Assembly (NCBI GenBank): GCA_020444415.1
Contig: JAHLLA010000002.1
Location: 186,001-250,000, forward strand
Direction: 5' to 3'
Length of the DNA stretch: 64,000 nucleotides
DNA from: Bacteroidota bacterium
Lineage (GTDB): Bacteria; Bacteroidota; Bacteroidia; Bacteroidales; F082
Shown here: positions 8,717 through 19,009 of the stretch, piece after piece
Layout: every line of letters starts with the position of its first letter
Numbering within the stretch: the stretch's first letter is position 1
Program-made: the position numbers and the translations under genes
The notes under the pieces: generated by a model
The model's database searches: none
What the model was told of the DNA's origin: nothing
Seen by the model: the letters and a program-made list of their open reading frames with translations, nothing else

Positions 8717-9151
8717 TATATTCGCAACTGAATTTACAAGCAGCCTTTAAAAGGCAACAACTAAAACCAATTATATCCCCAACAAAACAAGCCACAATAA
8801 TAGGGAATAATGTTTCATTTCCAAATGCAATTTTTAGATAAATATCTCTTAATTGTTTAAACAAGTAACAATCAATTATGTTCGTTCATTAACATGATGT
8901 GACAGTTTGGCATCCGTTAACGAAACCAGTTCAGTTCACTCTTATTGGACTTGGGTAGAAAATAACTTAATATCCTCATTTTTAAACGAGTAGATATTTT
9001 GAATGGAAAAAGTACGCTTTATTGCAAACAAATTATAACAAATTAAATGTAAAACTTAAAACAAATGCCTATGTGAAACAGTGGAATTTCTTTTAATAGA
9101 GAACAGATAACAAGCCTTAAATATAAATAACTAATAATTAAATTTTTAACT
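8717..9151 (+). promoter_or_regulatory. Promoter box and roughly 425-nt conserved leader of cassette 1
   Basis: The gene-free stretch 8488-9151 holds a TATATTCG box (8717-8724), close to TAnnTTTG, followed by a long leader to the first A-type gene. Blocks shared with the leaders at 12235 and 15703 are: ATTTGTTAAT about 50 bases upstream of TTCGCA; CCAATTATA followed by CCAACAA-like sequence; a hairpin at 8794-8813 with AGGG in its loop; CATTTC just after it; and GCCTATG, AAACAGTGGA and ACAAGCC-like blocks near the start codon. A strong AT-rich palindrome, TTGTTTAAACAA, also occurs. No reading frame in it looks coding. I see the conservation directly; that it is a transcribed regulatory leader is inferred. 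Confidence 0.6.
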
Positions 9152-10186
9152 ATGAAAAAAGTAATTTTATTATTTCTGATTGCAGCCACAATTGTGAGCT
9201 GTAATAAGAATGAAACTACGACGCCTGCTGAAAAAAGCGAGGCTGAATTAGCGTTCAATGTTACTACCATATTTCCTGATGCAAACAGAGAATGGGAATA
9301 TGACGTTCCTGAGTGCGACCCAACAGCAGTTGCTGTTACTGCAAAATTTAAACTTGCAGAAATTGAAGGTCCAGATGACGGATATTTTAACGTTGATGTA
9401 TTTTATACCAACGACAGCCTCTACACACAGGTGTTAAAGGTGAACCTCACTGAATGTGATGACGATGGAGATGGTTGTTGTACATTTACATTAACCGAAT
9501 TCTATTTATTGGATGCCAATGGTGTTGAGATCAAAGCAATGCCTGCAGTTGATTCAGAATTCTTTGAATTTGTAACCAACCCTGAAGAATTAACTTTTGA
9601 GGTTTGTGCTTTCAAGAAAACGCAAGTTTATGTAGATGTACTTTGTTTCGAAGAGCATTTATATGAATTGTTTGGATTTTACTGGTTCAACATTACTGAG
9701 ATCACAGTTCGTGAAATGTGTTTCTTTGGCGATATCTGTATCAGCTATTTTGACAATCCTTTCACAGATTGGCAAGAGATCGATAACCTTTATCAAGGTC
9801 AAACCAATGGTATTCAGGCTGACATGCCCGCAATTTTCACATTGATGGTATACACCTGGGATGACGACGCCAATGATTGGACAGCAAATCCAAGAGAATG
9901 GAATAATGAATACTACGCAGATGGAAGTCCGTGGTTAGGTGAAAATGATCCGTTATGTATCAGATATGCTGACTACGACAATGCAATTGATCAGTACAAA
10001 GTTGAAGTATATGTATATGGTCCTTACGGTCCATTCGGCTATCCCGCACAACCTACCGGAGTATGGTACTTTACTGACAACGCACAATCACTTGACTTAA
10101 ACCAGGATGGTGTAGTTGACTTCGTATTAGGTGACTGTAATGAAGATCCTGAGTATGAATTTCCTGAATCAGCTCCTGGGAAATAA
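9152..10186 (+). CDS. Repeat-family lipoprotein A1 (unknown function)
   Basis: I do not recognise a named family. It is 344 residues, with a lipoprotein signal ending IVSC (Cys17) and an acidic, aromatic-rich mature protein. It is paralogous to the genes at 12676 and 16175 and, over its whole length, to the first two-thirds of the B-type genes. Shared blocks are the NDSLYT segment, the WFNITEITVREMCFFGDIC block at about 180-198, GIQADMPAIF, PLCIRYADYD, and an end region DLNQDGVVDF that looks like a Ca2+-binding loop (DxNxDGxxD). Conserved cysteines (PEC, VLC, EMC, DIC, PLC, GDC) suggest disulfides outside the cytoplasm. It is followed by B1 after 28 bases. Confidence 0.85.
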   Translation: MKKVILLFLIAATIVSCNKNETTTPAEKSEAELAFNVTTIFPDANREWEYDVPECDPTAVAVTAKFKLAEIEGPDDGYFNVDVFYTNDSLYTQVLKVNLTECDDDGDGCCTFTLTEFYLLDANGVEIKAMPAVDSEFFEFVTNPEELTFEVCAFKKTQVYVDVLCFEEHLYELFGFYWFNITEITVREMCFFGDICISYFDNPFTDWQEIDNLYQGQTNGIQADMPAIFTLMVYTWDDDANDWTANPREWNNEYYADGSPWLGENDPLCIRYADYDNAIDQYKVEVYVYGPYGPFGYPAQPTGVWYFTDNAQSLDLNQDGVVDFVLGDCNEDPEYEFPESAPGK

Positions 10187-10214
10187 TATTAACTTTTAAA
10201 AATTAACTATAGAT

Positions 10215-11786
10215 ATGAAAAAATTAATATATATATTCATGATCGCAGCGGTTTTTACCAGCTGTAAGAAGAACACTACCAATGAGCCTACTCCTCAGAA
10301 TGATAAAATGCAGGAAGTTGAATTCAACATTACTTCTGTATTAAATTCTACCGACAGGGCTTTAGAACTACCTATTTGTAATGACGAATTAGAAGCGAGC
10401 TACGCTGAAATCGTTATTGATGGCAATACCTATTTCGCAGGTTTATATTCAATTGGCGACTCATTATATACAAAAGCTATCATGATGGCTCCGGGCGGAC
10501 CTTATGTTGTTGAAGAGTTTTACCTCTGGGATGATATGGGCACCAACGCTAATTACGATGGTGTACCTGGTGACTTAGGTGACCCAAATGTAACATCAAG
10601 ATCAGATGACGAGCTTTATAAAGCAGCTCCGATGCCAGGATCAGATTTATTTGAATTCGCTGACAACCAGCTTGAAATTGAATTCTCTGTGCAAGAGTTT
10701 TTGAAAACCAAAATCAATATTGATGTATTATGTTATGTACCGCACCAATATTTAGACTTTGGCTTCTTCTGGTTCAACATCACAGAAATTACAGTACGTG
10801 AAATGTGTTTCTTTGGCGACCTTTGCTTAAAGAGCACAGCAGACTATGAAGGTTCATTATATGCTCAGCAAGAAAATGGAGTACAAATTGATGTACCAGC
10901 TATCTTCAAAGTTGTTGTTTATCACCAAAGAGAAGGTCATGACGAAGTTCTCGTAGGCGAATTCAGCAACGAAGAATGGCTGGGCGAAGGCGCTCCATTG
11001 TGTATCAGGTATGCTGATTACGATGCTGATGTAGACCATTACAGGTTTGAACTTTGGATTTATGTTGCTGATGGTGACCAGGGTGGTTTCGGATATGTTT
11101 ATTTCGACACACTTGAGTTTGACGACATTATTCCTGACGAAGTTGTTGGTGATGATGGCGTTGTTGATTTTGTATTGGGTAACTGCCACGCGTCTCCTGC
11201 TGATGACGTATGGGTATTGGCTCCTTACATGAACCTTCCAGAAACAGCTACGATGACACTTGGAGCACAAGCTGACCCAGGTAATAATACGGGTGCGTAT
11301 TGGGATGTAATGTTTAGTGGTTTTGGTACTGGTTATGATATTAAAACTGGTATCTGGTATCCAGGCTGGTGCGGTGATGAAAACACTACTATTGGATCTG
11401 GATCACATAATGTACTTGTATACTCAACTTTGGATCCTGTTGCTGGTATGCCAGGGCCAAACACGCTAACAGACAGAAAACTGGAAGCATTGAATTACCT
11501 GTTCAATCACTATGACAACAATGGTATCGATATTTACGCACCTAATTTTGGGCCTGAATTCACTACCATTCAGCATTCAATTTGGTCAGTTGTTCACAGT
11601 ACTGGAAACGTGCCTGCTAATAACGGGTATCAACCAGCAGCTGTGGCCATGGCACAAACAGCACTTTCTAACGCCAGTATTGGATTCGTTCCATTACCAG
11701 GTGGTGATGCCGGCGTCTTATTCTTTGAAGACGATGGTTTAGGTAACTATGTATCTCAACTAGTTTTAATTGTTGTTGATCCATAA
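10215..11786 (+). CDS. Repeat-family lipoprotein B1 with C-terminal thioester-like domain
   Basis: 523 residues, no named family assigned. The lipoprotein signal ends FTSC (Cys17). Residues about 30-325 are an A-like module (NDELEASYAE, WFNITEITVREMCFFGDLC, PLCIRYADYD, DDGVVDFVLGNC). Residues about 345-523 are an extra domain: GYDIKTGIWYPGWCGD (Cys386), LNYLFNHY, TIQHSIWSVV (Gln453), GFVPLPGGDAG, and the very end QLVLIVVDP. The order Cys motif, LNYL helix, Gln-x-x-Ile-Trp and GFVP-PGG turn resembles thioester-type domains, in which a Cys and a Gln side chain are linked. That is inference from memory. It lacks a T9SS tail, so lipid anchoring is the expected surface attachment. Confidence 0.85.
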   Translation: MKKLIYIFMIAAVFTSCKKNTTNEPTPQNDKMQEVEFNITSVLNSTDRALELPICNDELEASYAEIVIDGNTYFAGLYSIGDSLYTKAIMMAPGGPYVVEEFYLWDDMGTNANYDGVPGDLGDPNVTSRSDDELYKAAPMPGSDLFEFADNQLEIEFSVQEFLKTKINIDVLCYVPHQYLDFGFFWFNITEITVREMCFFGDLCLKSTADYEGSLYAQQENGVQIDVPAIFKVVVYHQREGHDEVLVGEFSNEEWLGEGAPLCIRYADYDADVDHYRFELWIYVADGDQGGFGYVYFDTLEFDDIIPDEVVGDDGVVDFVLGNCHASPADDVWVLAPYMNLPETATMTLGAQADPGNNTGAYWDVMFSGFGTGYDIKTGIWYPGWCGDENTTIGSGSHNVLVYSTLDPVAGMPGPNTLTDRKLEALNYLFNHYDNNGIDIYAPNFGPEFTTIQHSIWSVVHSTGNVPANNGYQPAAVAMAQTALSNASIGFVPLPGGDAGVLFFEDDGLGNYVSQLVLIVVDP

Positions 11787-11828
11787 TATTATATTGTAAG
11801 TGAAAGGAGTAATTTAATTATTCCTTCT

Positions 11829-11870
11829 GGTTGTGTGAGTTGGTAAACAGTTTGTATCAATAATACAACC
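11829..11870 (+). other. Conserved 42-nt two-stem hairpin in the 3' UTR of B1 (copy 1)
   Basis: The outer stem is GGTTGT (11829-11834) with ACAACC (11865-11870). The inner stem is TTGGTA (11840-11845) with TATCAA (11855-11860), and the loop is AACAGTTTG. The same architecture, at the same 42-nt length, follows B2 and B3 with different but still paired inner stems. A second small hairpin (about 11878-11897) and the terminator follow. Confidence 0.7.
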
Positions 11871-11900
11871 GCAATATAAAGGGGATTCGTTCCCTTACAA

Positions 11901-11933
11901 AAAGAGGCTGGATTTTTCCAGCCTCTTTTTTTT
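11901..11933 (+). terminator. Intrinsic terminator of cassette 1
   Basis: AAAGAGGCTGG (11901-11911) pairs with CCAGCCTCTTT (11918-11928) and is followed by a run of T. It ends the A1-B1 transcript. Confidence 0.9.
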
Positions 11934-12012
11934 ATACTCAGATGTCTTGCCCTGAAATAGCGCTACACAAAAAGTAATGTTATTTCAGGCCGAGAAATTT
12001 AGACAATATATT

Positions 12013-12044
12013 AAAAGGCTCATCTTTAAAGATGAGCCTTTTTT
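12013..12044 (+). terminator. Second, orphan intrinsic terminator after cassette 1
   Basis: A perfect stem AAAAGGCTCATCTT (12013-12026) with AAGATGAGCCTTTT (12029-12042) ends in T residues. No gene lies between it and the previous terminator. The 79 bases between them hold only an imperfect hairpin built on CCTGAAATA and TATTTCAGG. It may be a back-up terminator or end a small RNA. Confidence 0.75.
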
Positions 12045-12211
12045 ATTGTACGAAAGTTTAGATTTTTGCAATAAAAAATATAATTACTTCAAATCATTAA
12101 ATATTTTTTTTTGAGCTAAGAATACACCTGTAACAATTGTGAACACTGCATATATAAATAAACCGACATGTAATAAATGTTAATTATTTGTTAATTTTTT
12201 TTGCAAAATGC

Positions 12212-12675
12212 TTGCATTTAGCTTTTTCTTGCCATATATTCGCAGAGGAATTTGTTACAAGCAAACGAATTCACTGATAACCTAAACCCAATTATACTTC
12301 CAACAACCCAAGCCTTATAACAATTTATTAGGGAAATTGTCTCATTTCTGGAAAAGCAACTTTTAGAGCATATCTTCTATGGGTTGTAACCAACAAGCAT
12401 CATACAATTATGAACGTTCATAATCTTGGTGTACTTACACCTTTTGACTGAATTTGTTCTGATTCCTATTTATGTAAACATCGCATAACAAGCAAGTTTA
12501 TACCCTTTTATGGCTAAAAGCAACATGCTTCACCTTTGTAAATACACGTGAGCGAAAAAAAGTATATGTAATAAACTAAAGTTAAACCAATACTAATTGC
12601 CTATGAAACAGTGGAATCAATTAGAAACAGATGTACAAGCCAAAAAATAAATTTTTAAAAATTAAAATTTTAACT
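12212..12675 (+). promoter_or_regulatory. Promoter and roughly 430-nt conserved leader of cassette 2
   Basis: TTG (12212-12214), 20 bases, then TATATTCG (12235-12242) fits a Bacteroidota promoter. The leader to the A2 start holds the same ordered blocks as leaders 1 and 3. These include a hairpin ACAATTT (12320-12326) with AAATTGT (12334-12340) and AGGG in the loop, then CTCATTTC. An 18-nt palindrome centred near 12414 (ATTATGAACGTTCATAAT) and a GGTGT/ACACC hairpin follow. Near the gene come TGCCTATG, AAACAGTGGAAT and AACAGATGTACAAGCC. The interval from the cassette 1 terminators to about 12180 shows nothing else recognisable. Confidence 0.65.
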
Positions 12676-13704
12676 ATGAAAAAAGTAATTTTATTAATTC
12701 TGATTGCGACCGTAGTTTTTAGTTGTAAAAAGAATGAAACTACAACGCCTGATAAACAACAGGCAGAAGTAGCTTTTAATGTTACTACCATTCTTCCGGA
12801 TGCTGGCAGGTGGGACTATGACGTTCCTGAATGCGATCCAACGGCCGTAGCTGTAACAGCCAAATTCAAACTGGCTGAACAAGAAGGTCCTGACAACGGA
12901 TATTTTATGGTAGATGTATTCTATACAAACGACAGCTTGTATAGTAAAGTCCTAAAAATGGATCTCACCGAATGCGATGATGATGGAGACGGCTGCTGTA
13001 CTTTTACAGTAGAAGAATTCTATCTTCTTGACGCAACCGGTAAAGAGATCAAAGCAATGCCAACTTCTGATTCAGAATTCTTTGAATTTGTATCAAATCC
13101 TGAAGTACTCACTTTCGAAGTATGTGCATTCAAAAAAACACAGGTTTATATTGATGTATTGTGTTTTGAAGAACATTTATACGATCTGTTCGGTTTCTTC
13201 TGGTTTAATATAACAGAAATTACTGTCCGTGAAATGTGTTTCTTTGGTGATATCTGTATTAGCTATTTCGATTATCCCTTTACATACTGGCAAGATGTAG
13301 ACAACCTTTATCAAGGTCAAACCAATGGTATCCAGGCTGATATGCCCGCAATTTTTACACTTAAAGTGTACAAATGGGATAATGATATAGGCGATTGGGG
13401 ACTTAACCCAAGAGTTTGGAACAATGAATACTATCCAAATCAGGATCTCTGGTTAGGTGAAAACGATCCACTCTGCATTCGTTATGCAGACTATGACTTT
13501 GCTACTGATGAGTACATGATCGAAGTATATGTGTATGGCCCCTATGATGGTTTCATGTATCCACTTGTGGCAACCGGCGTATGGTACTTTACTGACAACG
13601 CACAATCTCTTGATTTGAATCAGGATGGTGTCGTAGACTTTGTATTAGGTATTTGTAATGAAGATCCTGAGTATGAATTTCCTGCAACAGTTCCAGGGAA
13701 GTAA
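12676..13704 (+). CDS. Repeat-family lipoprotein A2 (unknown function)
   Basis: 342 residues from the ATG at 12676. An in-frame ATG 45 bases upstream would put 15 charged residues before the signal peptide, so the later start is preferred; it also matches the A1 and A3 starts. The lipoprotein signal ends VFSC. The protein is very similar to A1, including the ECDDDGDGCCTF stretch, WFNITEITVREMCFFGDIC, GIQADMPAIF, PLCIRYADYD and the Ca2+-loop-like DLNQDGVVDF. The DNA differs from A1 at many synonymous sites, which points to old duplication with protein-level constraint. B2 follows after 26 bases. Confidence 0.85.
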   Translation: MKKVILLILIATVVFSCKKNETTTPDKQQAEVAFNVTTILPDAGRWDYDVPECDPTAVAVTAKFKLAEQEGPDNGYFMVDVFYTNDSLYSKVLKMDLTECDDDGDGCCTFTVEEFYLLDATGKEIKAMPTSDSEFFEFVSNPEVLTFEVCAFKKTQVYIDVLCFEEHLYDLFGFFWFNITEITVREMCFFGDICISYFDYPFTYWQDVDNLYQGQTNGIQADMPAIFTLKVYKWDNDIGDWGLNPRVWNNEYYPNQDLWLGENDPLCIRYADYDFATDEYMIEVYVYGPYDGFMYPLVATGVWYFTDNAQSLDLNQDGVVDFVLGICNEDPEYEFPATVPGK

Positions 13705-13730
13705 TATTAACTTTTAAAAACTATATAGAT

Positions 13731-15314
13731 ATGAAAAATTTAATATACATACTTATGATCGCGGCTGTAGTTTTAACCAGCTGTAAGAAGAATACTAACG
13801 AAGTTACACCACAAGGTGACAACATGCAAGAAGTTGAATTTAATATTACATCAATCTTAAACTCAACTGACAGAGCCCTTGAGATTCCTATTTGTAACGA
13901 TGATTTAAATGCAAGTTATGCAGAATTCGTTATTGATGGAACTACCTATTTCACAGGCGTATACTACATTGGTGATTCATTATACACAAAAGCTGTAATG
14001 ATGGCACCAGGTGGCCCTTATACCGTAACCGAATTTTATATTTGGGATGATGGCGGCACACCAGGATATGATGGTACACCTGCCCAGGTAGCACCACCAG
14101 GAAGCGGAAGCCGTATTGATGATCAGTTATACAAAGCTGCTCCAATGCCTGATTCTGATTTCTTTGAATTTGCTGACAACCAACTAGATATTGAATTCTA
14201 TGTAACAGAATTCCTGAAAACCAAAATCTATATTGATGTATTATGTTATGTACCACATCAGTATCAAGACTTTGGATTCTTCTGGTTTAACATTACAGAG
14301 ATCACCATTCGCGAGATGTGTTTCTTTGGCGACATTTGCCTGAAGAGCACCCTGGATTATGAAGGTTCATGGTACGAAGGCCAGGAAAATGGACTACAAA
14401 TTGACATGCCGGCTATTTTCAAAATTGCTGTTTATCACCAAAGAGAAGGACATGATGAAGTATTTGTTGGTGAATTCAGCAATGATGCTGAAGATTGGTT
14501 AGGCGAAGGTGCCCCGCTGTGTTTCCGTTACGCTGACTATGATGCTGATATAGACCATTATAGATTTGTATTATGGGTATATGTAGCTGATGGAGACGAT
14601 GATAGCGGCTTTGGATATGTTGAATTCGGAACACTTGAGTTTGACGATATGGTTCCTGATGAAGTGGTTGGAACTGATGGTGTTGTTGATTTTGTAATTG
14701 GCAACTGCCATCATATGCCAGGAGATGATGTATGGGTATTAGAACCTTATATGAATTTACCCGAAAGTGGTGAAATGAAACTGTACTCGCCAGCCGATCC
14801 GGGAGATATAACCGGTGCTTACTGGGATGTTGAATTTGCAGGATTTGGTTCAGGTTACGACATTAAAACTGGTGAAGTTTACCCGGGATGGTGTGGTGAT
14901 AAATGGCATACAATCAACTTCGGATGGCATGATGTGATTTTCTACTCAACATTGGATGATGCCGCTGATATGCCAGCACCTCATCTTACAGACAGGAAGC
15001 TTGAACAATTGAATTATTTGTTCAATAATTTTAAAAATCACAACTTAGACCTATATCCATTAAGTGGTGTATTTGAGCCTGCAACAACACAAGCAATCCA
15101 ACAGTCTATCTGGATGGTTGCCCACGCTGGCACAACCCAACCTTATACTCCTGGTAATAGTTTAGCTCTAACAATGGGTTCTGACGCCTTGTCGAGCAAC
15201 AGTTTAGGTTATCTGATTCCTCCTGGTGGAGATGCCGGAGTAATGATGTTTACTGATAATTCAGATAGGGTTGAATATGTTGATCAATTGATTTTAATTG
15301 TTGTTGACCCATAA
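13731..15314 (+). CDS. Repeat-family lipoprotein B2 with C-terminal thioester-like domain
   Basis: 527 residues, same layout as B1: a lipoprotein signal ending LTSC, an A-like module to about residue 330, and the extra domain with Cys388 (PGWCGD) and Gln457 (AIQQSIW), then PPGGDAG and the terminal QLILIVVDP. From the lipobox to the start of the extra domain, its DNA is apparently identical to B3 over 988 bases, whereas the C-terminal 180 residues differ at many positions. No T9SS tail. Function unknown; surface or adhesive roles are possible but not shown. Confidence 0.85.
   Translation: MKNLIYILMIAAVVLTSCKKNTNEVTPQGDNMQEVEFNITSILNSTDRALEIPICNDDLNASYAEFVIDGTTYFTGVYYIGDSLYTKAVMMAPGGPYTVTEFYIWDDGGTPGYDGTPAQVAPPGSGSRIDDQLYKAAPMPDSDFFEFADNQLDIEFYVTEFLKTKIYIDVLCYVPHQYQDFGFFWFNITEITIREMCFFGDICLKSTLDYEGSWYEGQENGLQIDMPAIFKIAVYHQREGHDEVFVGEFSNDAEDWLGEGAPLCFRYADYDADIDHYRFVLWVYVADGDDDSGFGYVEFGTLEFDDMVPDEVVGTDGVVDFVIGNCHHMPGDDVWVLEPYMNLPESGEMKLYSPADPGDITGAYWDVEFAGFGSGYDIKTGEVYPGWCGDKWHTINFGWHDVIFYSTLDDAADMPAPHLTDRKLEQLNYLFNNFKNHNLDLYPLSGVFEPATTQAIQQSIWMVAHAGTTQPYTPGNSLALTMGSDALSSNSLGYLIPPGGDAGVMMFTDNSDRVEYVDQLILIVVDP
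13779..14766 (+). repeat. 988-nt tract identical to 17325-18312
   Basis: Read base by base, this tract in B2 and the tract in B3 (offset 3546) show no difference. Identity starts within the lipobox codons and stops abruptly at the codons following MNLPE. Outside it the two genes differ at many sites, including synonymous ones. Confidence 0.9.
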
Positions 15315-15350
15315 AAGTACTTGTTTGTTGGGAATTTAAATTTATTCCCT

Positions 15351-15392
15351 GGTTGTACGCGCCTGTAAACAGTATGTACAGGCATTACAACC
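15351..15392 (+). other. Conserved 42-nt two-stem hairpin in the 3' UTR of B2 (copy 2)
   Basis: Outer stem GGTTGT / ACAACC; inner stem GCCTGTA (15361-15367) with TACAGGC (15377-15383); loop AACAGTATG. A small AGGA/TCCT hairpin and an ACCC/GGGT hairpin follow before the terminator. Confidence 0.7.
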
Positions 15393-15441
15393 AATATTAA
15401 AAACAGGATTTAATTCCTAAAGACCCTAAGCGGGTTATCAT

Positions 15442-15472
15442 AAGGCCAGACGAAAAGTCTGGCCTTTTTTTT
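15442..15472 (+). terminator. Intrinsic terminator of cassette 2
   Basis: AAGGCCAGAC (15442-15451), loop GAAAA, GTCTGGCCTT (15457-15466), then a T-run. Confidence 0.9.
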
Positions 15473-15702
15473 GCCGAGGGAGAGGAAGCTTATGATCATT
15501 TGGTATTGATGAATTTATGTTTCAAAACGAAACTTGATATATATTTTTCTTTATACCTCAGTTACAATTATACATTGAGTACGTTTTTTCAATGAAATAA
15601 CTTTAAAACTTAATTCCATCTTTCAGGCCAATAAATACAATATATATGATAATTTATAGATGTGTTAATGTTAAATATTTGTTAATTTATTTCGTATTTT
15701 AC

Positions 15703-16174
15703 TTGCTTTTCGCTGCTTTATAACGTACATTCGCAGTAAGATTAACTACAAGCATACCCCTTACCCGGGGTAACCAACAACCAATTATACTACCAACAAT
15801 CCAGGCCATATTTCAATTTTCAAGGGAAAATTGTCTCATTTCAAGAAAAACAACTATAGGGAATGTCTCCTTTGGTTGAGTTTAACAGGCATTCAACAAT
15901 TATGATTGTTCTTTCAAAAGTGTATGTATGCACTTTTAAGAATGTGAAAACTGTGTTCCTTGGTTATGTTTTATTGGTATAACCTGTGTGAAACACCTCC
16001 AATTATATTCGAACAAACAAATACGACCGCAGTATCTGTTAAAGCTGTGCATATTACAATATATATAAATAATAAACTGAAGTTGAACTAAATATAACTG
16101 CCTATGAGAAACAGTGGATTCAATTAAAAACAGATGTACAAGCCACAAAAATTATTTAAATAAAAACTTTAACT
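15703..16174 (+). promoter_or_regulatory. Promoter and roughly 435-nt conserved leader of cassette 3
   Basis: TTG (15703-15705), 20 bases, TACATTCG (15726-15733), then a long leader. Blocks shared with leaders 1 and 2 include CCAATTATA, a hairpin CAATTTT (15814-15820) with AAAATTG (15827-15833) and AGGG in the loop, CTCATTTC, and near the gene TGCCTATG, AAACAGTGGA and AACAGATGTACAAGCC. Copy-specific hairpins are ACCCC/GGGGT near 15757-15771 and a perfect AAAAGTG/CACTTTT stem near 15917-15938. The stretch 15473-15640 shows nothing recognisable. Confidence 0.65.
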
Positions 16175-17251
16175 ATGAAAAAAGTACTATTACTTCTTCT
16201 GATTGCAGCAGTAGTTTTTAGCTGTAAAAAGAATGAGCCTACGACACCTGAGAAACAACAGGCTGACTTGGCTTTTAACATTACTAGCATTTTTTCAGAT
16301 GAGAGCCGCGATTGGGATCCGTTGATTCCCGAGTGCAACGCTGACGATGTAGCAACCCAGGCTAAGTTCAGATTATTAGAACAAGAAGGGCCTTTTGACG
16401 GTTATTTTATAGTAGATGTGTTCTACACAAATGACAGTCTTTATACACAGGTGCTAAAGTTCGATCTCACTGATTGTGCTAATGACGATGGATGCTGTAC
16501 TTTCACCCTCACCGAGTTTTATCTATTGGATCAAAATGGTGATGTGATGAAAGCTATGCCTCAACCTAATTCAGAGTTTTCAGAATTTGTGTTTAACTCT
16601 GACTATTTTATCACCTTTGATGTCTGCCCATTCCTGAAAACACAGGTATATGTGGAAGTTTTATGTTTCCAGCCACATTACTATATTGATTTTGGATTCT
16701 TCTGGTTCAATATTACCGAAATTACAGTTCGCGAAATGTGTTTCTTTGGCGATGTTTGTATTGACTGGTGGTGGGATGAATTTGAAATTCCTTTTGCTTA
16801 TTGGCAGGATACTGAAAATTTATATCAGGATCAAGTAAATGGTATTCAGGCTGATATGCCTGCATTGTTTGATCTTGTTGTATTTAAGTGGGTGATAGAT
16901 GATGATTATCCTAATGGACATTGGGTGTACTCAAGAGTATGGCACTATATGGATCCGTTTAATATGGAAGACCCACTCTGCATCAGATATGCTGACTATG
17001 ATTTTGCTACAGACATATACAAAGTGGAACTCTATGTGTATGGTCCATGGCCTTATGTTACAAGAGACGGATTATTCGGAATTACTCCAAATGGTATCTA
17101 CCAAGGATGCTGGATATTTTCTGACAATGCAGATGTGCTTGACCTGAATGGAGATGGTGTTATTGATTTCGCAATGGGATATTGCGTTGAGGATCCTGAA
17201 TATCAGTTCCCTGATGAGGTTTGTTTTGAAGAACCAGTTATAAATAAGTAA
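16175..17251 (+). CDS. Repeat-family lipoprotein A3 (unknown function)
   Basis: 358 residues, the most divergent A copy. The lipoprotein signal ends VFSC. It keeps WFNITEITVREMCFFGDVC, GIQADMPALF, PLCIRYADYD and the DLNGDGVIDF calcium-loop-like motif. It has a tryptophan-rich insertion (DWWWDEFE) after the central Cys block and a longer tail with an extra Cys (PDEVCFEEPV). The start is fixed by the conserved AACTATGAAAAAAGTA context shared with A1 and A2. B3 follows after 25 bases across the same conserved TAATATTAACTTTTAAAA junction. Confidence 0.85.
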   Translation: MKKVLLLLLIAAVVFSCKKNEPTTPEKQQADLAFNITSIFSDESRDWDPLIPECNADDVATQAKFRLLEQEGPFDGYFIVDVFYTNDSLYTQVLKFDLTDCANDDGCCTFTLTEFYLLDQNGDVMKAMPQPNSEFSEFVFNSDYFITFDVCPFLKTQVYVEVLCFQPHYYIDFGFFWFNITEITVREMCFFGDVCIDWWWDEFEIPFAYWQDTENLYQDQVNGIQADMPALFDLVVFKWVIDDDYPNGHWVYSRVWHYMDPFNMEDPLCIRYADYDFATDIYKVELYVYGPWPYVTRDGLFGITPNGIYQGCWIFSDNADVLDLNGDGVIDFAMGYCVEDPEYQFPDEVCFEEPVINK

Positions 17252-17276
17252 TATTAACTTTTAAAAAAATAGAGAT

Positions 17277-18863
17277 ATGAAAAATTTAATATACTTATTG
17301 ATGATCGCAGCTATAATTTTAACAAGCTGTAAGAAGAATACTAACGAAGTTACACCACAAGGTGACAACATGCAAGAAGTTGAATTTAATATTACATCAA
17401 TCTTAAACTCAACTGACAGAGCCCTTGAGATTCCTATTTGTAACGATGATTTAAATGCAAGTTATGCAGAATTCGTTATTGATGGAACTACCTATTTCAC
17501 AGGCGTATACTACATTGGTGATTCATTATACACAAAAGCTGTAATGATGGCACCAGGTGGCCCTTATACCGTAACCGAATTTTATATTTGGGATGATGGC
17601 GGCACACCAGGATATGATGGTACACCTGCCCAGGTAGCACCACCAGGAAGCGGAAGCCGTATTGATGATCAGTTATACAAAGCTGCTCCAATGCCTGATT
17701 CTGATTTCTTTGAATTTGCTGACAACCAACTAGATATTGAATTCTATGTAACAGAATTCCTGAAAACCAAAATCTATATTGATGTATTATGTTATGTACC
17801 ACATCAGTATCAAGACTTTGGATTCTTCTGGTTTAACATTACAGAGATCACCATTCGCGAGATGTGTTTCTTTGGCGACATTTGCCTGAAGAGCACCCTG
17901 GATTATGAAGGTTCATGGTACGAAGGCCAGGAAAATGGACTACAAATTGACATGCCGGCTATTTTCAAAATTGCTGTTTATCACCAAAGAGAAGGACATG
18001 ATGAAGTATTTGTTGGTGAATTCAGCAATGATGCTGAAGATTGGTTAGGCGAAGGTGCCCCGCTGTGTTTCCGTTACGCTGACTATGATGCTGATATAGA
18101 CCATTATAGATTTGTATTATGGGTATATGTAGCTGATGGAGACGATGATAGCGGCTTTGGATATGTTGAATTCGGAACACTTGAGTTTGACGATATGGTT
18201 CCTGATGAAGTGGTTGGAACTGATGGTGTTGTTGATTTTGTAATTGGCAACTGCCATCATATGCCAGGAGATGATGTATGGGTATTAGAACCTTATATGA
18301 ATTTACCCGAAACAGGACAAATGTTTTTGTATAGTCCTGCTGACCCAGGTAACATAACAGGTGCTTACTGGGATGTCGAGTTTTCCCAATTCGGAACTGG
18401 ATATGACATCAAAACAGGTATAGTATACCCCGGATGGTGCGGAGATAAATGGCATACGATTGATTACGGATTGCATGATGTTTGGTTCTACTCAACATTA
18501 GATGATGCCGGTGATATGCCATCCAATTATCTCACGAACGAGAAACTTGAACAATTGAACTATTTGTTTAATCATTTTGAGAATTATAACCTTGATTTGT
18601 ATCCTTTATCTGGTGTATTTGATGCTACTACAAAGACAGCAATCCAGGAATCAATCTGGATGGTTGCCCATTCGGGAACAACTCAACCATTTAATCCACC
18701 TAGTACATCTCTTGCCTACGAAATGGGCTCTGATGCTTTGTCTAGCAATAGCGTAGGCTATCTGATTCCTCCAGGTGGAGATGCCGGCGTATTGATGTTT
18801 ACCCAGGGACCTACAAGGGTTGAAGTTATAGAGCAATTAGTATTAATTGTTGTTGACCCATAA
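17277..18863 (+). CDS. Repeat-family lipoprotein B3 with C-terminal thioester-like domain
   Basis: 528 residues. The lipoprotein signal ends LTSC. From the lipobox Cys to about residue 345 the protein is identical to B2. The C-terminal domain keeps Cys388 (PGWCGD), LNYLFNH, Gln457 (AIQESIW), PPGGDAG and the end QLVLIVVDP, but its surface residues differ widely from B2. The pattern of an identical scaffold module and a divergent terminal domain is unusual for simple duplication. It is the last gene of the array, followed by the 42-nt hairpin and a strong terminator. Confidence 0.85.
   Translation: MKNLIYLLMIAAIILTSCKKNTNEVTPQGDNMQEVEFNITSILNSTDRALEIPICNDDLNASYAEFVIDGTTYFTGVYYIGDSLYTKAVMMAPGGPYTVTEFYIWDDGGTPGYDGTPAQVAPPGSGSRIDDQLYKAAPMPDSDFFEFADNQLDIEFYVTEFLKTKIYIDVLCYVPHQYQDFGFFWFNITEITIREMCFFGDICLKSTLDYEGSWYEGQENGLQIDMPAIFKIAVYHQREGHDEVFVGEFSNDAEDWLGEGAPLCFRYADYDADIDHYRFVLWVYVADGDDDSGFGYVEFGTLEFDDMVPDEVVGTDGVVDFVIGNCHHMPGDDVWVLEPYMNLPETGQMFLYSPADPGNITGAYWDVEFSQFGTGYDIKTGIVYPGWCGDKWHTIDYGLHDVWFYSTLDDAGDMPSNYLTNEKLEQLNYLFNHFENYNLDLYPLSGVFDATTKTAIQESIWMVAHSGTTQPFNPPSTSLAYEMGSDALSSNSVGYLIPPGGDAGVLMFTQGPTRVEVIEQLVLIVVDP
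17325..18312 (+). repeat. 988-nt tract identical to 13779-14766
   Basis: Second copy of the identical tract in B3. See the B2 copy for the boundaries; both edges are abrupt and lie inside coding sequence. Confidence 0.9.
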
Positions 18864-18881
18864 AAACATTAGCTTGTTTAT

Positions 18882-18923
18882 GGTTGTATGAGTAGGTAAA
18901 CAGTATGTGCTTACATTACAACC
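18882..18923 (+). other. Conserved 42-nt two-stem hairpin in the 3' UTR of B3 (copy 3)
   Basis: Outer stem GGTTGT / ACAACC; inner stem GTAGGTA (18892-18898) with TGCTTAC (18908-18914), including G-U pairs; loop AACAGTATG. A perfect AAGGAAT/ATTCCTT hairpin (18934-18952) and an ACCC/GGGT hairpin follow. Confidence 0.7.
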
Positions 18924-18976
18924 AACTATTAAAAAGGAATACGTAATTCCTTAAAAAACCCTAAAGCGGGTTAACA

Positions 18977-19009
18977 AAAGAGGCCGGACATGTCCGGTCT
19001 CTTTTGTTT
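18977..19009 (+). terminator. Intrinsic terminator of cassette 3
   Basis: A near-palindromic stem of AAAAGAGGCCGGACA and its complement, followed by TTTTGTTTT. Confidence 0.88.

Follow-up and report, generated by a model that had tools for sequence, protein, structure and literature searches.

Each of three tandem gene pairs in the stretch of Bacteroidota DNA analysed here (the window: 64,000 nucleotides, contig C4:186001-250000; positions below refer to it) is followed by a 42-nt hairpin that is a real, covarying RNA element of the 3' untranslated region (3' UTR), and comparison with a related species supports its selection as RNA of the coding strand. We call the two genes of a pair A and B. 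The hairpins lie on the coding strand and begin 42, 36 and 18 nt past the stop codons of the B genes of units 1, 2 and 3 (Table 1). An earlier note on this DNA had reported the three elements, their length, their outer stem arms (GGTTGT/ACAACC) and their loops, all of which we confirm. The common structure consists of an outer stem of 7 bp, a 3x2 internal loop, an inner stem of 7 bp and a 9-nt loop (AACAGUWUG) closed by an invariant GUA/U. The outer stem had been called invariant, which holds for the window's three copies (7 bp, GGTTGTR/TACAACC) but not for relatives, one of which has ACAGCC and a G-U pair; the element ends read GGTTGTR and TACARCC. The inner stem was said to differ between the three copies and to pair each time. 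This stands, except that it measures 7 bp in all of them, copy 1 having GTTGGTA/TATCAAT with two G-U pairs. Compared with 200 dinucleotide shuffles each, the folding energies of copies 1, 2 and 3 give z values of -3.2, -3.7 and -2.9 (2, 0 and 3 of the 200 shuffles fold as well).

Two further full copies follow B genes in G003, another species of the same genus (g1). The five full copies align over 42 columns with no gaps, and the loop is identical in four of them, copy 1 differing at one position. All 70 pair cells (7 + 7 bp in five copies) are standard, and three inner pairs show changes on both sides across the copies; these both-sided changes keep the pairs in relatives, as in a covarying structured RNA. 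None of 500 shuffles reaches the observed pairing, which drops to 25-47% when the partner is slid by 1-3 columns. From the five complete 3' UTRs, with no structure supplied, RNAalifold recovers these 14 pairs (covariation term -1.84), and single-sequence folding yields the common structure, slightly extended, for four of the five copies.

This pairing has been kept at considerable evolutionary distance. Synonymous sites of B (positions at shared A, G, P, T, V, S, R and L residues) are 36-46% identical between species, over 95-134 sites per pair, and the element outside its inner stem is 82-93% identical. For the inner stem itself, identity is 50-86% between species and 43-57% within the window, with pairing kept in every copy. 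When independent change of the inner stem was simulated on a tree that groups the two G003 copies (tree and branch lengths being our choice), a single run out of 200,000 kept all 35 cells paired; of the 127,876 runs with mean divergence within 1 of that observed, none did. The claim of a selected RNA structure is thus supported by G003 copies that keep every pair, by the three double-changed pairs and by synonymous sites of B that are near saturation. It could still be supposed that the hairpin is under no selection and is a remnant of recent tandem duplication that pairs by chance, as the B genes that precede copies 2 and 3 were homogenised recently (91% amino acid identity) and the copies seem to belong to one syntenic locus. 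The paired changes already contradict this, as do the shuffles, and the pairs are kept across species whose B proteins share 45-57% amino acid identity; we regard such an origin as extremely improbable.

On the + strand the pair cells include seven G-U and no A-C, which favours RNA and this strand. The same cells (7 of 70) would be mismatches in DNA, with A-C on the other strand, and thereby speak against an element that acts as folded DNA, whether as a recombination or cassette site (integron attC-like) or as a cruciform driving tandem duplication. Such a role, which we consider very unlikely, would suit the presence of one copy per unit and the number of units, which varies among the sequences seen (three B genes of this type in the window's genome, two in G003 and two, at contig ends, in G002). 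However, the integron attC core is GTTRRRY, which the ends of the element (GTTGTR) do not fit, and no integron integrase was found above the TIGR02249 cut-off in the window's genome (G000; 3.15 Mb, 96.2% complete), where the lower-scoring integrase-model matches are of a kind also given by 14 of 14 control genomes. With neither the core sequence nor an integrase found, we rejected an integron attC site.

The element was found in genus g1 only and has no Rfam family. Among the four genomes searched in this genus, B relatives occur in three, and the element is whole after all five full-length B genes with enough downstream sequence, a sixth being cut by a contig end. G003 carries it after both its B genes (L024:126-167, minus strand, and L025:4115-4156). 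In G002 one contig stops 7 nt into the element (GGTTGTA) after B and the other stops inside B, and G001 (86% complete) gave no B match. A covariance model of the five full copies (R1) returns these five in the genus with E values no higher than 1.6e-11, followed by a reverse-strand match to one of them (E 0.0014); nothing else falls under E 2.5. A pattern search of the window's whole genome (stem arm plus loop, one mismatch) gave the window's three copies only. The earlier note had said that its claim would fall if no further copies turned up in the genome and covariation failed once relatives were added: no more copies occur elsewhere in the genome, but covariation holds with the relatives included.

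R1 searches scored a limited number of candidates per genome (150 in the genus, 37 in the family and 16 in the order), and those of family and order, run with stricter filters, may miss weak relatives. Among 173 family genomes (E up to 0.1), three matches lie outside genus g1 (25.5, 23.3 and 23.1 bits). We read them as chance-like: all are within open reading frames (ORFs), 34 other bases replace most of the loop in the first, and the other two have a similar loop and broken pairs. Among 393 genomes of the order (E up to 0.01), the sole other match (G512, 26.1 bits) is inside an ORF and has an enlarged loop. An element widespread in Bacteroidota is not supported by these four weak ORF-internal matches. 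The exact outer pattern was absent from viral contigs; the loop pattern occurs in 43 of them, and the best of these, all 43 being scored, reaches 24.3 bits over model positions 12-32, which we attribute to chance. Rfam 15 identified only the Bacteroidales small signal recognition particle (SRP) RNA and tRNA-Lys in the whole window, and a search of 11780-12680 with E up to 1 gave 27 matches, none reaching its gathering cut-off. No description of the element was found in the literature searched, most subscription journals and supplements being outside its coverage.

Genes related to A and B also occur elsewhere. An array of three A/B-like genes (L027) on contig C21 of the window's genome lacks the 3' hairpin, and their matches to B extend at most to residue 387 of 523. 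In two species of genus g4 (L029, L031), one nested hairpin of ~140 nt that ends in a T run replaces the element directly after the B relative.

Within the unit, which runs from a ~420-nt leader (predicted start) through A and B to a structured 3' UTR and an intrinsic terminator, the 3' UTR is best conserved at the element. Hairpin H1, rich in purines, stands 0-2 nt before the element in five of six cases (copies 1 and 2, both G003 copies, G003a and G003b, and G002), with differing letters, and none was seen at copy 3; the count of H1 pairing used arms picked from folds and is biased accordingly. The earlier note had described a second hairpin after the element that changes sequence and keeps pairing. 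This hairpin (H3) exists with counterparts and forms, weakly, in five of five when folded alone, but its pairing is only partly kept, RNAalifold retaining four H3 pairs with 3 of 20 cells unpaired. An ACCC/GGGT repeat is present in copies 2, 3 and G003b and makes its own hairpin only in the G003b fold. An outermost helix around H1 and the element (copy 1, G003b) was rejected as a general feature: copies 3 and G003a form it only weakly, and when the arms are permuted, 8 of 120 orders, counting the true order, give pairing as good or better. In blastn from the element onward, the 3' UTRs of G003b and unit 3 share 77.7% identity over 157 columns.

With H3 and, in most copies, H1 as neighbouring hairpins and a terminator downstream, the element might merely protect or shape the mRNA 3' end, through stability or back-up termination, with no specific partner. 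It is not itself an intrinsic terminator, for a U-tract is absent and an A-rich stretch follows in all five copies, the terminator being separate and downstream. Moreover, a plain stabiliser needs no conserved loop and outer stem at near-saturated synonymous divergence, and we judge this explanation rather unlikely.

Our preferred reading, to which we give about even credence, is that the hairpin is a cis-acting 3'-UTR element in each A-B mRNA that shows its conserved loop to a trans-acting partner. The stem would be a scaffold presenting the loop, with the invariant GUA/U beside it, and the loop would dock the partner, most likely an RNA-binding protein and less likely a small RNA. Through binding, the partner could control how stable the A-B messages are, how their 3' ends are processed or how they are translated, and all paralogous units of the array would thereby respond to one signal. 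We favour a protein because the loop and its closing GUA/U do not vary and the searches brought up no complementary RNA, although a short sRNA seed is also conceivable. Pairing of the loop with other RNAs, raised in the earlier note, was looked for in leader and genome, and no complementary site above background emerged: anti-loop sites in the genome (13 letters, up to one mismatch) number 8 besides the elements versus 6 for a reversed control pattern. A kissing interaction of the loop with its own mRNA leader was rejected, being no better than with shuffled leaders in five of five units. There is no loop-complementary site common to all five units; one 8-nt complementary site with a G-U pair is present in units 2 and 3, whose B genes are near-identical there.

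Alternatively, the 3' UTR may be cut into, or separately transcribed as, a small RNA (sRNA) that uses the 9-nt loop as a seed on other messages. An intrinsic terminator does come after the element, 21 candidate sRNAs from UTRs have been reported for Bacteroides thetaiotaomicron (PMC7366714), and one of 14 FopS sRNAs is 3'-UTR-derived (PMC11697453). This fits poorly with near-exact anti-loop sites at background, and the GibS and FopS seeds, as these two sources describe them, are single-stranded 5' stretches and not hairpin loops. An sRNA origin seems improbable to us, about as much as a role confined to the 3' end.

Several results weigh against a docking element. Loop-complementary sites are at background, as said. 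A search of the window's genome for RRM_1 gave no match, and the domain was found in a control Bacteroides; if RbpB is, as we presume, an RRM_1 (Pfam) protein, an RbpB-like partner is therefore unlikely. B relatives occur in 16 of the 173 family genomes, including the three of genus g1, and at 20 B loci of other genera and one further contig, inspected by eye, terminators or nothing similar come after B; such genes therefore do not need the element in general. The comparison comprises five sequences from two species only. On two of the five shuffle measures the result is less striking: the number of double-changed pairs is reached by 25 of 500 shuffles and the number of pair types by 101, which we ascribe to the small set of sequences. 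Finally, the minimum-energy fold of copy 3 has a different inner pairing, with all 14 common pairs still possible.

More tentatively, and with less confidence than the docking role itself, the hairpin may represent a new family of 3'-UTR RNA docking elements in which one conserved loop on changing stems would place every operon of a tandem array for thioester-adhesin-like lipoproteins under the same trans-acting factor. That factor might be an RNA-binding protein particular to the lineage and unlike RbpB, or even an encoded protein acting in a feedback loop. Compact, with a clear model and three copies in one genome, and fixed while the adjacent gene diverges, the element would be well suited to testing how surface proteins are controlled post-transcriptionally in a Bacteroidales genome without an RRM_1 match.

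Few conserved structured RNAs of bacterial 3' UTRs are known, and regulation by a structured 3'-UTR domain is called highly unusual in bacteria by the authors who describe the L17 downstream element, a structured RNA candidate located in what may be the 3' UTR of genes for ribosomal protein L17 (PMC2864571). As described there, that element resembles ours in being a structured RNA downstream of one gene family, with its strand inferred from G-U pairs, but it follows another gene and has GNRA tetraloops. We rejected identity with it: our hairpin follows lipoprotein-like B genes, and the window has no L17 model match. GibS and FopS RNAs are likewise from Bacteroidota, with one FopS member from a 3' UTR (PMC7366714, PMC11697453); FopS is described as a short RNA with an intrinsic terminator end that regulates outer-membrane proteins and is bound by RbpB (PMC11697453). 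Their seed is single-stranded at the 5' end, whereas the candidate docking site here is a loop. FopS also differs in its RbpB partner, the window's genome being without an RRM_1 match (RbpB presumed, as above, to be an RRM protein). The iron-responsive element (IRE) is a UTR hairpin bound by aconitase/IRP1, with the loop CAGUGN, a C-G pair across the loop and a bulged C below. Our hairpin shares with it the UTR location, CAGU in a conserved apical loop and a variable stem, but was rejected as an IRE: the loop AACAGUWUG has no such G, and the upper 7-bp stem is unbulged.

Fold comparison gives the B proteins a thioester-adhesin-like C-terminus. The A proteins have ~340-360 and the B proteins 523-528 amino acids; both are lipoprotein-like at the N-terminus and match no Pfam family above cut-off, and B in particular has no match to a thioester-type domain. 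Fifteen aligned B proteins have an invariant Cys (WCGD-like) and an invariant Gln four residues ahead of an invariant Trp. The AlphaFold2 model of the unit 2 B protein has a mean pLDDT (predicted local distance difference test) of 70.7, higher in the C-terminal part. When the model was compared with VIA-align 2, where best Z values of 7-8 are common even without a clear match, Gram-positive surface adhesins ranked 1-10, on model residues 341-527, with Z 8.1-10.0 (root-mean-square deviation 3.2-4.0 over 125-153 residues), and the next row had Z 6.7. Three of these ten structures are titled thioester domains, and the others (Cpa, FNE, TIE) we take to be thioester adhesins. Plain Foldseek is weak on the whole model, with two matches at E 0.001 or better. 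In our reading, B is a lipoprotein whose C-terminal domain resembles those of thioester adhesins, the thioester bond itself being putative. The fold likeness covers 14745-15311 and, in the other B genes, the corresponding ends. A text search of the literature found no paper on thioester-like domains of Bacteroidota lipoproteins, which merit separate study.

The three gene pairs span 9152-18863 in a locus that is syntenic: a gene for an S9 peptidase is upstream in the window, G003 and G002, and the tRNA-Lys region lies downstream of the units in the window and on the other G003 contig. Between 13731 and 18310, the B genes of units 2 and 3 are near-identical up to ~18310 and then diverge sharply, a pattern suggestive of recent gene conversion in which each 3' UTR was spared.

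Table 1. Coordinates of genes, leaders, hairpins and terminators of the three A-B units in the window
Feature	Position	Strand	Remarks
Leader, unit 1	8731..9151	+	long, before A; conserved blocks; predicted start after promoter-like TATATTCG
A gene, unit 1	9152..10186	+	lipoprotein-like, no Pfam family above cut-off
B gene, unit 1	10215..11786	+	lipoprotein-like, C-terminal thioester-like domain (fold comparison made on unit 2 B)
Hairpin H1 before copy 1	11804..11826	+	AAGGAGT/ATTCCTT; 2 nt from element
Hairpin copy 1	11829..11870	+	loop AACAGTTTG; R1 61.0 bits (copy is in model)
Hairpin H3 after copy 1	11879..11896	+	fold and pairing
Intrinsic terminator, unit 1	11900..11934	+	GC-rich hairpin and T run
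Leader, unit 2	12246..12675	+	long, before A; predicted start
A gene, unit 2	12676..13704	+	start set by comparison with units 1 and 3; listed ORF starts 12631
B gene, unit 2	13731..15314	+	
Hairpin H1 before copy 2	15330..15349	+	GGGAAT/ATTCCC; 1 nt from element
Hairpin copy 2	15351..15392	+	loop AACAGTATG; R1 67.0 bits (copy is in model)
Possible hairpin H3 after copy 2	15405..15418	+	weak, 4 bp; folded alone, not in whole 3' UTR fold; partly kept by RNAalifold
Intrinsic terminator, unit 2	15442..15472	+	sequence, fold
Leader, unit 3	15740..16174	+	long, before A; predicted start
A gene, unit 3	16175..17251	+	
B gene, unit 3	17277..18863	+	
Hairpin copy 3	18882..18923	+	loop AACAGTATG; R1 66.3 bits (copy is in model)
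Hairpin H3 after copy 3	18934..18952	+	AAGGAAT/ATTCCTT
Intrinsic terminator, unit 3	18976..19005	+	sequence, fold

The leaders carry conserved blocks, for example CCAATTATANNNCCAACA..AAGCC, GGGAAATTGTCTCATTTC and TGCCTATGNGAAACAGTGGAAT, and the consensus structure computed for them was not convincing (energy -1.09, covariation term +1.11). With up to two mismatches, the first block is present in three g1 genomes at seven sites, all before A genes; a further six candidate sites, each with two mismatches, are scattered over other genera among 172 genomes. Two of the three A/B-like genes on contig C21 follow parts of the same leader motif (GCCTATGAAACA).

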